Shown here piece by piece: positions 4,016-9,852 of a DNA stretch of 64,000 bases. Each line of letters starts with the position of its first letter. Position 1 is the stretch's first letter. The position numbers and the translations under genes were made by a program. The notes beneath the pieces were generated by a model. That model was not told the origin of the DNA and ran no database searches. It saw only the letters and a program-made list of their open reading frames with translations. The DNA is taken from positions 1-64,000 of the forward strand of contig JAFANP010000044.1 in NCBI GenBank assembly GCA_019232625.1, in the 5' to 3' direction. The DNA comes from Alphaproteobacteria bacterium (GTDB lineage Bacteria > Pseudomonadota > Alphaproteobacteria > Sphingomonadales > Sphingomonadaceae).

Positions 4016-4795
4016 TCAGCGGGTGCCGGCGGCCTTCCTGCGCCGGGCGAGCATGTTCAGCCCCTCGACCCCGGCGGAAAAGGCCATCGCGGCGTAGATA
4101 TAGCCTTTCGGGACGTGCACGCCGAAGCCGTCGGCGATCAGAACCGCGCCGATCATCAGGAGGAAGCCCAGAGCGAGCATCACCACGGTGGGATTGCGGT
4201 TGATGAAGCTCGCGACCGGATCGGCGGCGAACAGCATGACGGCGACGGCGACGATCACCGCGACGACCATGATCGGCAGGCTCTCCGTCATCCCGACCGC
4301 GGTGAGGATCGAATCGATCGAGAAGACGATGTCGAGCAGCAGGATCTGGACGATCGCCGCGCCGAAGCCGAGCGTCGCCCTCGCGGTGTCGAAGACGGCA
4401 TCCTCCGAGCCGGGCTGGACGTTGTGGTGGATCTCCTTGGTCGCCTTCCAGACCAGGAAAAGCCCGCCGGCGATCAGAATGAGGTCGCGCCAGGAGAATT
4501 GGGTCTCGAAGCCCGGCTCGCCGTGCGGGCCGGGCGCGCCCTGGAGGCCGAGGTCGAAGACCGGCGCCTTGAGCCCGACGATCCAGGCGATGGTCGAGAG
4601 GAGGACGAGCCGCATGACGAGGGCGAGGCCGATGCCGAGGCGCCGCGCCTTTTGCCGCTGCGCCTCGGGCAGCTTGTTCGACAGGATCGAGACGAAGATG
4701 AGGTTGTCGATGCCGAGCACCACCTCCATCACGATCAGCGTCGCCAGCGCGGCCCAGGCCGCAGGCTGCGCGAAGACGCTCAGAATCTCGCCCAT
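4016..4795 (-). CDS. TerC family integral membrane protein
   Basis: A 259-residue polytopic protein with about seven hydrophobic segments. The TerC/Alx hallmark is the acidic motif in the first membrane helix, [17 protein letters not shown], repeated in a later helix as [16 protein letters not shown]. TerC and Alx relatives are linked to tellurite resistance and to Mn(II) efflux, with the membrane-embedded acids as the probable metal sites. It is preceded by a 236-base intergenic region shared with the divergent cold-shock gene. No ter operon partners are present, so a metal-export role is inferred from family only. Confidence 0.85.
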
Positions 4796-6039: not shown

Positions 6040-6699
6040 CTAGATCTGGTTCCAAAGGTTGGGCTTCAGCCGGCGCTCTCCCCAGCGCAGCCCGTCGCCG
6101 CCTCCCGAGGATTCGGGAGCGAAGATTCGGATCGCGGCAAGGCTGCCATAGCCGCCCGCCTGGCGGGGAGGGATCCAGCTGCCGGCGCTGGCGTCCCAGA
6201 TCTTCACCTCGTCGTCGCCGACGAGCAGCGCCGTCGCCTCATGATAGATGTGGGCGCCGTCGAGCCAGTGGCACGACACGTCGTCCCGGGCCCATTTGCC
6301 GCGCCACTGCTCGGTGGCGTCCTCGCTGTAGACCTGGACGAGCTGGGTGGGATAGGCGGTGAGGCCGCGGGCGCCGAACGCGGCATGGGCGAGCGCCGCA
6401 TGCGCCCCGCAATCGATCGTCTTGCGCGTGACCGCCTCGCACCAGTGCATCGGCCAGGGCGAGGGCCCCCATTCGTATTTCTGCCGAAGCCAGCGCGGGC
6501 CGCTGAGCCGGTCGGCGCCGTTGAGCTGGGCGAAGTCCATCGCCAGCACCCATTCGCGCGCGACCTCGCAGCAGGCGCGGCCGTGATGGGAGAGAATGCT
6601 GTACGGGAAATCCTGCCAGCGGTCGCTCGGCCGGGGTTTCGCGGCCGCCTTGTCCTGCGCAACCGCCCCGATCTCCTTGTCAGCCTCGGCCAAATACAT
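6040..6699 (-). CDS. Transglutaminase/cysteine-protease-like protein partnered with the ATP-grasp/decarboxylase gene
   Basis: A 219-residue soluble protein that I cannot name. It has the ordered nucleophile-His-Asp layout of transglutaminase-like and NlpC-like folds: Cys97 at the start of a helix (TIDCGAHAALAHAAF), His153 in HIYHEATALL and Asp169 in VKIWDASAG. Spacing and local motifs fit a Cys-His-Asp triad. There is no signal peptide or membrane segment, so it should be cytoplasmic. The start MYLAEADKE overlaps the 3' end of the upstream 755-residue enzyme by 20 bases, so the two are translationally linked. By context it could be an amidase, acyltransferase or peptidase acting on the product of that enzyme. 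Activity is inferred from motifs only. Confidence 0.7.
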   Translation of the reverse strand: MYLAEADKEIGAVAQDKAAAKPRPSDRWQDFPYSILSHHGRACCEVAREWVLAMDFAQLNGADRLSGPRWLRQKYEWGPSPWPMHWCEAVTRKTIDCGAHAALAHAAFGARGLTAYPTQLVQVYSEDATEQWRGKWARDDVSCHWLDGAHIYHEATALLVGDDEVKIWDASAGSWIPPRQAGGYGSLAAIRIFAPESSGGGDGLRWGERRLKPNLWNQI

Positions 6700-8947
6700 A
6701 GGACATGCTCCTGTCGTAACCGCCGGCATCGCAGAAGATGAGGACGTCGCCCGCCCGCGTGCCTTCCGGCAGGGCGACGTTCGAGGCGACGATGTCATGC
6801 TCCATGCAGAGCCGGCCCATGAGGTGGGTCTTGCCGCGCCCGAGCGGCTGGAGTGCCCCCGTCTCGCCGCACTGGCGAAGGATGCGGTGGGGCTGGAAGG
6901 CGTACATCGGCAGCTCGGCGATCGAGCCGTCGACGACCGCCTCGACATGATCCTCCTCATGCTCCTGGATCTCCAGGATCCGCATGGCCAGCGCCATGGA
7001 CGGCTGGGCCATCGCCTTGCCCGGCTCGGAGACGATCTGCCGGACCGCGGGGAGGAGCGCCTTCACCGTCTCGACCGCGCGCGAGAAGCGGGATTCGTCC
7101 TCCGCATGCCAATCGTCGGGGAACCAGCCGCCGCCCATGTCGAGAATCTCGATCGTGCGGCCGGTCAGCCGCTCGATCGAGCGGCACCATTTCAGCATCG
7201 ATTCGAACAGGTGCCACCATTGCGCGACTCCGATGTTGGAGCTCGCCATGTGGAAATGGACGCCGAACGCCGCCTCGTCCGGAAGCCGGCCGACGGCCTC
7301 GACGAGCTTCGAGAAGGTCTGCGGGCTGTCGAGCGGAATGCCGAAGCGCGAGACGACGTTGGGCGTGCGGAGGCGGATGCCGACGTGACGCGAGGCCAAG
7401 TCCCCCGCCGCCATGGCGACGCAGCGGTCGAGGTCGGCCACGCTGTCGCAGAAGACGGCGTGGAGCCGCTCCTTCGGCATCAGGCCTTCCGGCCACCATT
7501 TGGCGGGGCCGTTGAGGATCACCTGGTCGGGGCGAAAGCCGATCTGGAGCGCCTTCTGCGCTTCCAGCAGGCTGATACACTCGGCGTAGAAGCCGTTTTC
7601 CAGCGCCAGGCGGATCAGGCGCTCGTCCGGATTGGTCTTGATCGAATAGCCGCTCACCACCTGCACCTCGTCGGTGCCGAGCCGGCGCGACCGCTCGGCG
7701 GCCCGCTTGAAGAGCCCGCTCGCGGTGCTCTCGAGGTAAAGGAACCGGGGCGTCTGCACCGTCTCCAGATCGTAGGCCGCGATGTCGGCGATGAAGGTGT
7801 CGGGCACGGCGGGCTTGCCGCCGGCCGCGGGCCCGGCCGGCTCCCCGACGATCTCGAGCAGCTCCGGATTCGACTTGTGGAGGCGCTGCGCGAGCGAGGT
7901 GAGGCCGGAGGGGTGCTTCATCGAATGGCCGACAGCGCCGGCGAAGGGCTCGGGGAGCGGCGGCAGCGGATAATCGTCCCGGACCGGGACCTCGAGGACG
8001 ACCCGGGTGAATTCGGCGGCGCGGGCTTCCGCCTTGACCGCCCTGGCGCCGCTCGCGCCCTGAACGAGGAGCGCGGGAAGGTTGTAGCCGCCGATCGTGG
8101 CGCCGTGCACCCATGCGGGGAAGCGCGGGTTCACCTCCAGCAGCCAGAGCTGGCCGCCCGGATCGCGGACCATCTCCAGCTCGCCGCCGCCGGTCCAGTT
8201 CAGCTCCCTGACGATTCGGCGCAGCGGCGCCTCGAACGCGGGGTCGACCGGCGAGACGTCGCCGGCCCAGGTCTTGCCTTCGGGCGTGATGTCGCGCTTG
8301 CGCATCGACACGCAGCCGAGCAGTTCCCCCCGATAGGCGCAGAGCATCACCGATTCCTCGTAGCCGCTGACATGGGCCTGGAGGAAAAGGCGTTCGGTCG
8401 ACCACACCTTGGTGAGCGCGTTGCGGGCGGCGACGAAGCTGTCCCAGGTGGGGGTCCTGGCGGCATCGTAATAAGGCCCCTTCAACCACACGCGCCAGTC
8501 GTTCGCGCGGCAGAAGGCGTGCAGGTCCCAGTCCGGCAGGTCCGTCGCCACGTAGGTCGGTATCCTGACGGGCAGCCCGGCATGGGCCGGGACGGCCGGC
8601 TTCGCGATCCTCTTCAGCGCGTCGGGCGGCGGCGCGAGGAGACCCGCATGGCCTCCTGGGAACAGGCTGGCGAGCCACATCGCCTCCAGGTCGCTTCCCG
8701 AGATCCACAGGCCGCCCTCGTCGAGGACGCGGCGCACCTTCCCGGCATAGCTTTCGAGATCCAGCTCGTTCCACGGCCGCTGGATCCAGAGGTCGTCCAG
8801 GCCCTGCCAATGGATGCCGGAGACTCGGTTGCTATATTCGACGCCGATCAGCGTCGCTTCCGGATATCCCTCCCGAAGGGACCGGGCGATGCCGACCCCG
8901 GGCTGCGGGTTGCCTCCGCAATAGAGGCCACTGATATATATTTTCAT
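6680..8947 (-). CDS. Fusion of ATP-grasp ligase and fold-III PLP-dependent decarboxylase
   Basis: A 755-residue two-enzyme protein. The N-terminal half (about 100-300) is ATP-grasp-like: a lysine in VWLKGPYYD, a flexible loop near KRDITPEGKTW, and the metal-binding GGELEMV and LLEVNPRF (Glu257, Glu271, Asn273). The C-terminal half (about 395-755) is a DAP/ornithine-decarboxylase-type barrel: PLP lysine in YSIKTNP (Lys437), HFHMASS (564-570), phosphate loop DMGGGWFP (604-610), EPGK (canonical EPGR), LCMEHD (Cys714, Asp718) and DAGGYDRSM. All catalytic motifs look intact. Ligation plus decarboxylation recalls the separate BtrJ/BtrK pair of butirosin biosynthesis, which activates and decarboxylates a carrier-bound amino acid. 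The substrate here is unknown. GGAG precedes the ATG. Confidence 0.8.
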   Translation of the reverse strand: MKIYISGLYCGGNPQPGVGIARSLREGYPEATLIGVEYSNRVSGIHWQGLDDLWIQRPWNELDLESYAGKVRRVLDEGGLWISGSDLEAMWLASLFPGGHAGLLAPPPDALKRIAKPAVPAHAGLPVRIPTYVATDLPDWDLHAFCRANDWRVWLKGPYYDAARTPTWDSFVAARNALTKVWSTERLFLQAHVSGYEESVMLCAYRGELLGCVSMRKRDITPEGKTWAGDVSPVDPAFEAPLRRIVRELNWTGGGELEMVRDPGGQLWLLEVNPRFPAWVHGATIGGYNLPALLVQGASGARAVKAEARAAEFTRVVLEVPVRDDYPLPPLPEPFAGAVGHSMKHPSGLTSLAQRLHKSNPELLEIVGEPAGPAAGGKPAVPDTFIADIAAYDLETVQTPRFLYLESTASGLFKRAAERSRRLGTDEVQVVSGYSIKTNPDERLIRLALENGFYAECISLLEAQKALQIGFRPDQVILNGPAKWWPEGLMPKERLHAVFCDSVADLDRCVAMAAGDLASRHVGIRLRTPNVVSRFGIPLDSPQTFSKLVEAVGRLPDEAAFGVHFHMASSNIGVAQWWHLFESMLKWCRSIERLTGRTIEILDMGGGWFPDDWHAEDESRFSRAVETVKALLPAVRQIVSEPGKAMAQPSMALAMRILEIQEHEEDHVEAVVDGSIAELPMYAFQPHRILRQCGETGALQPLGRGKTHLMGRLCMEHDIVASNVALPEGTRAGDVLIFCDAGGYDRSMSYVFGRG

Positions 8948-9058
8948 ATTTCTCCGAAGGATGCGGACGGCGGACCGGCGGCAGGCGCTGCCGGGAACCG
9001 CTTTTCCGGAATGTGCTGTCAGGGCCTGGAACCGGCCGGAGGGAAGCTGTCTAAGTTA

Positions 9059-9072
9059 TTGATCTGGATTAA
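9059..9072. promoter_or_regulatory. FNR/FixK-like box (one mismatch)
   Basis: TTGATCTGGATTAA differs by one base from the FNR/FixK consensus TTGAT-N4-ATCAA. It lies about 112-125 bases upstream of the ATP-grasp/decarboxylase start and partly overlaps the adjoining dyad. A single near-match in an A/T-rich patch may be chance. Confidence 0.25.
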
Positions 9073-9086
9073 GAAGCCGACTTAAT
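9068..9086. promoter_or_regulatory. ATTAAG-N7-CTTAAT dyad, possible operator
   Basis: A perfect 6-bp inverted repeat with a 7-base spacer, centred about 130 bases upstream of the ATP-grasp/decarboxylase start and just downstream (minus strand) of the terminator hairpin. Size and symmetry fit a dimeric regulator site; the regulator is unknown. Confidence 0.35.
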
Positions 9087-9129
9087 ATAAAAGAACCCGG
9101 CACGGGGACGAGGGTTCCGTGGAGCCGGG
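9086..9129 (-). terminator. Minus-strand terminator or attenuator upstream of the ATP-grasp/decarboxylase gene
   Basis: Read on the minus strand, CCCGG...CCGGG and CACGG...CCGTG arms fold with a small bulge and are followed by TTCTTTTATATT. There is no T-run on the plus strand, so the orientation is minus. No established minus-strand gene ends just upstream, which implies a short transcript such as a leader or small peptide gene, or an attenuator in the leader of the 755-residue enzyme. Confidence 0.6.
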
Positions 9130-9158
9130 GCCGTTCCGCCCGTTCGACGCGCGATCCG

Positions 9159-9242
9159 CTATCCGCAGCTGAATTCGCGGAGGGGCGGCGCCGGACGGGG
9201 ACCGGCGGGAGCCGCCGCGAAAAATCCCTGCAACCAAAGCAT
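9159..9242 (-). CDS. Possible 27-residue peptide (leader or precursor) before a terminator
   Basis: Short open frame reading MLWLQGFFAAAPAGPRPAPP and ending in REFSCG. It lies between the minus-strand terminator at 9086-9129 and the plus-strand gene at 9304. A longer 48-codon version begins at 9305 but would overlap that gene's ribosome-binding site. I see no convincing Shine-Dalgarno sequence. Its only support is position: a minus-strand terminator with no other gene to serve, followed by a ligase/decarboxylase operon. It could be a modified-peptide precursor, an attenuation leader or nothing. Confidence 0.25.
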   Translation of the reverse strand: MLWLQGFFAAAPAGPRPAPPLREFSCG

Positions 9243-9303
9243 TTGCCGGCGGTTCAGCGCTTCGACACCGAATGGATGCGGGAGGGGCCGAAAGGAGCCC
9301 AGC

Positions 9304-9852
9304 ATGTTCCGGCGTTTATTGGCTGCGTTTCTGATCGCCGCCCCTTCCGGTGCCGCGGTCGCCCAGGGCGAGAGCACGGGCGATTGGGCGCTGGCGACGA
9401 TGCCCAACGGGTGCATGGTCCAGGCCACGTCGCCCAAGGGGACGATGATCTCGGTCTGGGGCTTCGCAGGCCAGGACAAGATCGCCTTCCTGCTCCAGAA
9501 TCGCGGCTGGAGCGTGCGCGACGGCCAGCCTTACAGGCTCAGCCTCGACTTCGTCGGCGTCGAGACGCTTCCCGTCAGCGCCACCGCGCGCGAGCATATC
9601 GACAGCGACGGGCCGGGCTTCCTCTTCTCGGTCAAGCCCGGGGCGCAGGGCGCGACCGGCTTCCTCAACGCCTTCACCAGCGCCAGCGGCATGCGCATCA
9701 CGCAGGGCACCGAGAGCTTCGACACGCTTCCTCTTGCCGGCAGCAAGACGGCGATGGCGGCACTGGCGCAGTGCCTCGCCGATCGCTGGAGCAAGACGCC
9801 GGCGGCGGCGCCCGCCGCGGACAAGGAGAAGGACGTCCTCGATACCGTCTGA
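9304..9852 (+). CDS. Secreted protein of unknown function
   Basis: A 182-residue product with a clear Sec signal peptide (MFRRLLAAFLIAAPSGAAVAQ, cleavage predicted after AVAQ). The mature part has two Cys residues (one in PNGCMVQAT, one in ALAQCLADRW near the C-terminus) that could form a disulfide, and an Ala/Pro-rich tail. I do not recognise a family. An AAAGGAG ribosome-binding site sits 7 bases before the ATG. It converges with the spermidine-synthase-like gene, the stops being only 6 bases apart. Confidence 0.75.
   Translation: MFRRLLAAFLIAAPSGAAVAQGESTGDWALATMPNGCMVQATSPKGTMISVWGFAGQDKIAFLLQNRGWSVRDGQPYRLSLDFVGVETLPVSATAREHIDSDGPGFLFSVKPGAQGATGFLNAFTSASGMRITQGTESFDTLPLAGSKTAMAALAQCLADRWSKTPAAAPAADKEKDVLDTV

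Follow-up and report, generated by a model that had tools for sequence, protein, structure and literature searches.

A 64,000-nucleotide stretch of contig JAFANP010000044.1 from an alphaproteobacterial genome (hereafter the window, meaning this whole stretch) encodes a protein in which an ATP-grasp ligase part is joined to a fold-III decarboxylase dependent on pyridoxal phosphate (PLP), followed by a gene for a smaller protein with a Cys-His-Asp arrangement (the Cys protein). That the two activities of the fusion belong together is well supported, as they are fused in four phyla and encoded by overlapping neighbours in three Gemmatimonadota loci. We see about an even chance that they serve a carrier-free pathway in which a conjugated amino acid is decarboxylated, the product being most likely a specialised metabolite. 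A fuller version, which we put forward tentatively and at rather less than even chances, is a compact carrier-free system in which one chain would make and decarboxylate an amide and hand it on to a transglutaminase-like acyl- or aminotransferase and often to an oxygenase of a new 2-oxoglutarate (2OG)-dependent family, yielding a novel oxidised amine conjugate; this system would comprise two unnamed protein families and would have been exchanged among Acidobacteriota, Verrucomicrobiota and Alphaproteobacteria. The first-pass annotation of this DNA had placed both open reading frames (ORFs) correctly (755 and 219 residues, with a 20-base overlap, on re-reading of the coordinates) and had proposed ligation of an amino acid to a carrier or peptide, decarboxylation by the same chain, and release or transfer by the Cys protein. 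This idea finds partial support: gene structure over four phyla speaks strongly for a link between the ligase, the decarboxylase and the Cys protein, and a third enzyme can now be added, but no carrier was found.

A pattern scan of a species-genome collection yielded 31 related loci, hosted by Sphingomonadales, Caulobacteraceae, Chthoniobacterales, Acidobacteriota (several of them Pyrinomonadaceae) and Gemmatimonadota (by accession, L021 shares an assembly with L034, and L028 with L032). The fusion is not a product of chance, because it is 45–81% identical over four phyla (Alphaproteobacteria of the Pseudomonadota, Verrucomicrobiota, Acidobacteriota and Gemmatimonadota). The Cys gene stands directly downstream of it in 27/31 loci, which is every locus where the contig continues (27/27), the other four contigs (L031, L032, L034, L035) ending inside the fusion gene. 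Of these 27 loci, 22 show the 20-base gene overlap as well (by coordinates, with ATG starts); it measures 14 bases in L026, depends on the start codon in L027, and is unreadable in L005, L015 and L029. A further search returned 12 matching genomes, of which five hold full-length fusions (G686, G688, G1263, G1241, G1302), three hold split pairs described below, and four give weak matches (G1067, G1339, G1205, G1258); it added three Gemmatimonadota fusions with a Cys gene (L157, L160, L161), whereas L158 and L159 are repeats of L023 and L033. The first-pass annotation had accepted as grounds for its rejection either the lack of the fusion and its partner in related genomes or near relatives whose simple function had been proven; the searches made encountered neither.

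The fusion/Cys system is rare in the sampled genomes. The Cys family occurs in 1/299 genomes of the phylum and 1/397 of the family, each time in the window's own genome only, and a strong match is present in 1/297 Acidobacteriota genomes, this being the centre genome, with two more matches at E 0.004–0.01 that resemble chance. In a tree of the fusions (quick method, branch support by the Shimodaira–Hasegawa-like approximate likelihood ratio test, midpoint root), the Pseudomonadota and Verrucomicrobiota rows are nested, on starred branches, within the Acidobacteriota rows, which suggests horizontal transfer. Conservation was read from an alignment of 24 fusions (the window and 23/31 loci, leaving out L005 with its broken frame, L014 as near-identical to L013, and six cut loci) and one of 25 Cys proteins (the window and 24/27 loci having the gene), with mean column identities of 69% and 49%, respectively. 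At L005 (10001-12247), the match covers residues 4-752 of the fusion, and the interruption of its frame in this draft genome is either a sequencing error or the mark of a pseudogene.

The N-terminal part of the fusion is assigned to the ATP-grasp ligases by a Pfam match (PF15632, ATPgrasp_Ter, residues 185-305 of the window protein) and by conserved, predicted catalytic residues. Invariant in the 24 fusion rows are K156, E256, E258, N273 and R275 (N273-P274-R275), and we take K156, E256, E258 and N273 to have catalytic roles. The fusion also gives a weak profile match to a biotin-carboxylase-type chain (E 0.0036). Kinship of this part with carbamoyl-phosphate-synthase-like models, the group said to include BtrJ-like enzymes (PMC4431377), likewise speaks for the carrier-free pathway. 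ATPgrasp_Ter and both decarboxylase Pfam domains are present in all 24 rows, and the motifs of the first-pass annotation fall in invariant columns (Lys156, NPR, Lys437, HFH, GGG, EPGK, Cys714/Asp718).

The C-terminal part is a fold-III PLP decarboxylase by all marks of that family, namely, both Pfam domains (Orn_Arg_deC_N, PF02784, residues 429-647, 60.8 bits over a cut-off of 23.4; Orn_DAP_Arg_deC, PF00278, residues 622-742, 29.5 bits over 23), the Schiff-base Lys, the HxH, GGG, EPG[RK] and Cys/Asp motifs, and Foldseek matches. Lys437, H564-F565-H566, G605-G607, E641-K644, Cys714 and Asp718 are invariant in the 24 rows. Its top PDB match by sequence, from a single sequence and from a profile alike, is 7kh2, the N-citrylornithine decarboxylase FigC; BtrK (2j66) is matched clearly, though at a lower rank (1.6e-6 and 9.6e-21, respectively), and SbnH is also among the matches. 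According to the part of PMC7857480 consulted, FigC, SbnH, AcsE, MccE and BtrK, all with conjugated amino-acid substrates, share a clade with diaminopimelate (DAP) and D-ornithine decarboxylases; in lysine/ornithine, arginine and DAP decarboxylases, the side-chain amine is held by an acidic residue beside the catalytic Cys; Met355 takes the place of this residue in FigC, and His357 of FigC is modelled in a new role toward the citryl group.

The corresponding loop of the fusion (Cys714-Met715-Glu716-His717-Asp718) reads CMEHD in 21/24 rows and CMETD in the other three, which are from Gemmatimonadota. The window protein and 7kh2 align here as GRLCMEHD and GPSCMQHD, so that the C354-M355-x-H357 pattern of FigC is present in full. 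Elsewhere, the loop is CMNID in 3/3 split-form rows and CE[ST]GD in 13/13 DAP decarboxylase rows; the survey read the motif in 32/34 loci (six frames, two loci without it), and its 30 sampled loci, being the top PF00278 scorers, are skewed to DAP decarboxylases. Since the acid that binds the side-chain amine is replaced by Met, with a His two places on, as in FigC, the fusion decarboxylase probably acts on a conjugated amino acid. A citrate- or carboxylate-based siderophore-like product made without a nonribosomal peptide synthetase (NRPS), with the ATP-grasp part replacing an NRPS-independent siderophore (NIS) synthetase, would agree with N-citrylornithine decarboxylase as the best sequence match and with the match to SbnH. 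We consider it improbable, as no receptor or NIS-synthetase-like gene stands out, by inspection, among the neighbour clusters of the 31 loci, and as Arg387 of FigC, proposed to bind citrate, is not conserved. In the window protein Met748 aligns with this Arg, so that a citryl conjugate is improbable.

A role in lysine synthesis as a DAP decarboxylase (LysA) was considered and rejected: the window's own genome has a lysA scoring over the cut-off (363.4 vs. 297.9 bits), the fusion loop is CMEHD and not CE[ST]GD, and the fusion itself scores 85.5 bits against the same cut-off of 297.9. The same genome also encodes an exosortase-associated decarboxylase (491.6 bits, cut-off 478.45), as well as one whose loop, CDDLD, is of the ornithine type, and with these two beside lysA the fusion should therefore have another job. 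A further alternative, an ordinary decarboxylase of free amino acids joined to an ATP-grasp domain without function, could account for the PLP-binding and catalytic residues of the family and for lysA as the top NCBIfam model, far below cut-off as that match is; it would leave unexplained the invariance of K156, E256, E258 and N273, the replaced acid for a free side-chain amine, and the three decarboxylases already at hand, and we regard it as very improbable. The FslC model (NF041039) comes second in NCBIfam, at 65.7 bits with a cut-off of 500, which falls short of family membership.

The pairing of the two activities recurs in another form in three Gemmatimonadota genomes (L154, L155, L156; Table 1), where the fusion profile matches two separate adjacent genes that overlap by 4 bases and encode ATP-grasp ORFs of 352-484 residues and decarboxylases of 445-450 residues. 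Pfam and NCBIfam agree with this assignment for the 4/6 proteins scanned, and the best NCBIfam model of the split decarboxylases is FslC or lysA, both below cut-off. These sets share with the fusion a homologous ligase and decarboxylase, as overlapping neighbours, and a Met beside the catalytic Cys, but they are not fused. In a tree that also contains 13 DAP decarboxylases and two other decarboxylases of the window's genome (but not FigC, SbnH or BtrK), the fused and split decarboxylases form one group (98/95), separate from all others, although the program warns of long branches meeting. No match to the Cys protein was found around L154-L156 (12-17 kb each), and the next gene at L156 encodes a urea-transporter/Peptidase_M23 fusion. 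The Gemmatimonadota gene set looks like a second ligase-decarboxylase system. The first 25 residues of the split decarboxylases hold a conserved YE[KR]PxIxR...G....KFG stretch, which we take to resemble the leader peptides of ribosomally synthesised and post-translationally modified peptides (RiPPs); the fused forms are without it.

The first-pass annotation had also pointed to an arrangement of Cys97, His153 and Asp169 in the Cys protein, and all three are invariant in 25/25 rows. The AlphaFold2 model of this protein (predicted local distance difference test score, pLDDT, 90.8; predicted template modelling score, pTM, 0.85) probably has a transglutaminase-like fold: among its 50 best Foldseek rows, transglutaminase-like cysteine enzymes are frequent (pseudomurein endoisopeptidases PeiW/PeiP, LapG, the putative cysteine protease 3isr, TglA, vasohibins, PNGase, arylamine N-acetyltransferases and the amide synthase GdmF). 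Axonemal complexes, which contain a domain of this kind, account for the first row and for several more. On this prediction, the protein would share its fold and the Cys-His-Asp order with enzymes such as LapG, PeiW/PeiP, arylamine N-acetyltransferase (NAT), PNGase and GdmF, in line with the enzyme initially suggested; the sequence is unlike theirs, with an identity of 7-14% to the Foldseek rows shown, and sequence searches of Pfam, NCBIfam and the PDB gave no credible match. Judged by the model, its reaction may be acyl transfer or hydrolysis.

Table 1. Coordinates of the fusion and Cys genes in the window and of the split gene sets at three Gemmatimonadota loci.
Feature	Position	Strand	Details and basis
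ATP-grasp/PLP-decarboxylase fusion gene, whole	6680..8947	(-)	755 aa; ORF call, 31 related loci, tree
Fusion N-terminal part, residues 1-323: pre-ATP-grasp and ATP-grasp ligase domain	7979..8947	(-)	PF15632, invariant residues, homology to separate ATP-grasp genes L154-L156
Fusion C-terminal part, residues 385-755 plus stop codon: decarboxylase of PLP fold III (alanine racemase fold)	6680..7795	(-)	PF02784/PF00278, 7kh2, Foldseek
Cys protein gene, probable transglutaminase-like fold	6040..6699	(-)	219 aa; invariant columns, AlphaFold2, Foldseek
Cys97 codon	6411-6409	(-)	in Cys protein gene
His153 codon	6243-6241	(-)	in Cys protein gene
Asp169 codon	6195-6193	(-)	in Cys protein gene
Overlap of fusion and Cys genes, 20 bases	6680..6699	(-)	ORF coordinates
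Split gene set, L154	6613-9032		fusion-profile match
Split gene set, L155	2045-4848		fusion-profile match
Split gene set, L156	3866-8430		fusion-profile match

Search for additional partners relied on clustering of neighbour ORFs of at least 80 residues around the 31 loci, with one recurrent gene then traced by tblastn. This gene, of ~220-290 residues, lies beside the fusion/Cys pair in 22/31 loci (the copy at L016 being a fragment at a contig end) and is the conserved third partner for which the first-pass annotation had advised looking. It occurs in three arrangements: in Alphaproteobacteria it lies upstream of the fusion in divergent orientation, in Acidobacteriota it is upstream and shares the strand of the fusion, and in Chthoniobacterales it is found downstream. 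In Fe(II)/2OG oxygenases, an HxD...H...R pattern provides the iron ligands and the arginine for 2-oxoglutarate. H132, D134, H182 and R195 of the new family, invariant in 24/24 rows drawn from 19 loci, fit this pattern in order and spacing, and two distant homologues at L153 keep it as well, so that by its motif the third partner is a probable Fe(II)/2OG oxygenase. A genome search found it in 7/13 genomes; it was not found in the window's own genome, in the three Gemmatimonadota genomes G686-G688, or in the draft genomes G689 and G691, where a contig end cuts the fusion. In the genome of L006, contigs other than that of the fusion carry one complete copy and two partial ones. The stretch up to position 9303 of the window includes ~350 bases 5' of the fusion start codon, and tblastn found no oxygenase homologue in them. 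Two diverged copies stand in tandem in the Acidobacteriota loci L015, L019, L020, L030 and L033, which suggests two successive oxidations or two substrates.

No other gene approaches this frequency: apart from clusters overlapping the three genes, none covers more than 5 loci. No carrier, precursor, NRPS or siderophore gene was seen among the neighbour clusters of the 31 loci (Pfam having been run on only some of the ORFs, and the rest of the genome not searched for carriers). The absence of a carrier or NRPS beside the pair, which the first-pass annotation had singled out as its puzzle, may be no puzzle, because the best sequence match, N-citrylornithine decarboxylase, acts on a small-molecule conjugate, and a conjugate formed without a carrier would fit at least equally well. 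The arrangement can also be read after BtrJ and BtrK, with the ATP-grasp part charging an acyl carrier protein (ACP) encoded elsewhere (perhaps that of fatty-acid synthesis) with an amino acid, the PLP domain decarboxylating the thioester, and the Cys protein transferring the product in the manner of BtrH. Such a scheme would suit the match of BtrK to the decarboxylase by sequence, and by fold above N-citrylornithine decarboxylase, the kinship of the ATP-grasp part with carbamoyl-phosphate-synthase-like NCBIfam models, a group to which BtrJ-like enzymes are assigned (PMC4431377, consulted in part), and the papain-like domain of BtrH (PMC10318531, likewise in part). It has to contend with the better sequence match of N-citrylornithine decarboxylase, with neighbour clusters in which no carrier- or NRPS-like gene stands out, and with the BtrH_N model, which is matched by no member of the Cys family; overall, we judge it unlikely, if the least unlikely of the alternatives.

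Modification of a peptide or protein is another alternative: the ligase would add an amino acid, the decarboxylase would trim it to an amine as in MccE, and the Cys protein would be a maturation peptidase. MccE belongs to the same decarboxylase clade, peptidases account for several Foldseek hits of the Cys protein, and the split decarboxylases start with the leader-like YE[KR]P stretch; however, this stretch is absent from the fused proteins, and none of the small ORFs (20-120 residues) between -3000 and +4000 bases around the fusion is widely conserved. A precursor peptide or carrier in the flanks was accordingly rejected as a candidate, and we hold peptide modification to be distinctly unlikely. 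One small-ORF cluster covers 5 loci (L005, L007, L013, L014, L021) and is, by inspection, antisense to a GNAT-like gene; the others reach at most 2 loci.

The carrier-free pathway would thus run in up to four steps. First, the ATP-grasp domain, by its family and conserved residues, would activate a carboxylate with ATP and couple an amine to it, leaving an amino acid (probably a diamino acid) in an amide. The PLP domain of the same chain would then strip the alpha-carboxylate of the conjugate by means of Lys437 and Cys714, a conjugated substrate being suggested by the fusion itself and by the C-M-E-H-D loop. Many relatives, though not this genome, would also oxidise the substrate or the product with a probable Fe(II)/2OG enzyme, proposed from its motif and gene association. 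Finally, the Cys protein, with its predicted transglutaminase-like fold, may supply an acceptor with an acyl or amine group, or may act as a hydrolase.

Several observations weigh against this interpretation. On the ligase side, the window protein clears the ATPgrasp_Ter cut-off only just (29.3 vs. 29.1 bits), the substrate is not readable from sequence alone, and the 50 best Foldseek rows of the fusion model (pLDDT 77.6, pTM 0.57) are decarboxylases only, with no ATP-grasp structure among them. A viral arginine decarboxylase heads these rows, with BtrK in 11th place, SbnH in 34th and 7kh2 in 50th; as Foldseek ranks others above 7kh2, the preference for FigC is one of sequence only. The top NCBIfam match of the decarboxylase is lysA (TIGR01048) at the score given above, His717 is replaced by Thr in the Gemmatimonadota fusions and by Ile in the split forms, and the proposed citrate-binding Arg of FigC has no counterpart. 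Foldseek scores for the Cys protein are weak (264 hits at E<=10, 0 at E<=0.001, TM ~0.35). The candidate oxygenase was not found in the window's own genome and is without a credible Pfam, NCBIfam or PDB match; hhalign of its 24 rows against Asp_Arg_Hydrox (PF05118) and 2OG-FeII_Oxy_3 (PF13640) gave non-significant probabilities of 0.2% and 1.2%, respectively, and 9.8% and 0.2%, still not significant, after addition of two L153 rows, when the former model aligned His132 with a conserved His.

Comparison with characterised systems shows where the proposed pathway follows a known logic and where it departs from it. In the rhizoferrin pathway of FigA/FigC, a ligase converts an amino acid into an amide, and the conjugate is next decarboxylated by a fold-III enzyme (PMC7857480, consulted in part). 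The fusion would follow this order (as in FslA/FslC) and has the C-M-x-H-D loop of FigC; it differs in using an ATP-grasp ligase in one chain, and not a NIS synthetase as a separate protein, and in lacking the citrate-binding Arg387. To our knowledge, no transglutaminase-like partner belongs to the FigA/FigC pathway. In butirosin biosynthesis, BtrJ acts as an ATP-grasp ligase. As far as the consulted parts of the sources go, BtrJ, BtrK and BtrH share with the fusion set the combination of an ATP-grasp ligase, a decarboxylase of the same clade and, on the fold prediction, a cysteine enzyme of the papain-like superfamily, but they are separate proteins that use carrier-bound glutamate and an ACP, whereas the fusion set has no carrier beside its genes and no BtrH_N match. 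Predicted operons for amino-acid- and peptide-derived metabolites combine ATP-grasp ligases, PLP enzymes and double-stranded-beta-helix oxygenases (PMC2922099, Biol Direct 2010). A ligase, a PLP enzyme and an oxygenase are thus common to both, while the core enzymes described in the consulted part of that paper are tRNA-synthetase-like or cupin proteins, and no ligase-decarboxylase fusion appears there among the operons. A keyword search of the open-licence literature found no description of an ATP-grasp/decarboxylase fusion. If the proposed pathway is true, a one-chain ligase-decarboxylase would be added to a logic so far of separate enzymes (BtrJ/BtrK, FigA/FigC), with split and fused forms both at hand, and two unnamed protein families (the Cys protein and the candidate oxygenase) would gain a testable role. 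The gene set is small, and one of its hosts, Sphingomonas xinjiangensis DSM 26736 (L008), is a deposited strain in which the product could be sought.

A role in anti-phage defence was also considered and rejected, as the fusion, the Cys protein and one oxygenase were all without a PADLOC hit at E<=0.1. A GNAT-like ORF (assigned by inspection) is present near L005 (12896-13369), L008, L013 (8638-9048), L014 and L021, all alphaproteobacterial, on differing sides, and is possibly an accessory gene; other neighbour clusters, of 3-4 loci each, look generic or are confined to a single lineage. At L153 (4100-12300; G1436, Acidobacteriota), the distant oxygenase homologues lie near a Rieske ring-hydroxylase gene and a glutathionylspermidine-synthase-like ATP-grasp gene, with another protein nearby that has a sub-cut-off match to 2OG oxygenases; this set is possibly a related pathway using a different ligase. 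A TauD-like gene (assigned by inspection) was not found at other loci examined than the Acidobacteriota loci L054 (1677-2627) and L159 (10987-11934), where it adjoins the oxygenase genes and is 60% identical between the two. In the window, a TerC-family membrane protein is encoded ~1.2 kb past the Cys gene (4016-4795, minus strand); it is not seen as a repeated neighbour among the ORF clusters of the 31 loci, and its presence is probably a coincidence, although the Pfam family of the ligase is named after Ter operons. Divergent from the fusion, a 182-residue protein without a Pfam match is encoded at 9304-9852 (plus strand), and its start looks, by inspection, like a signal peptide.

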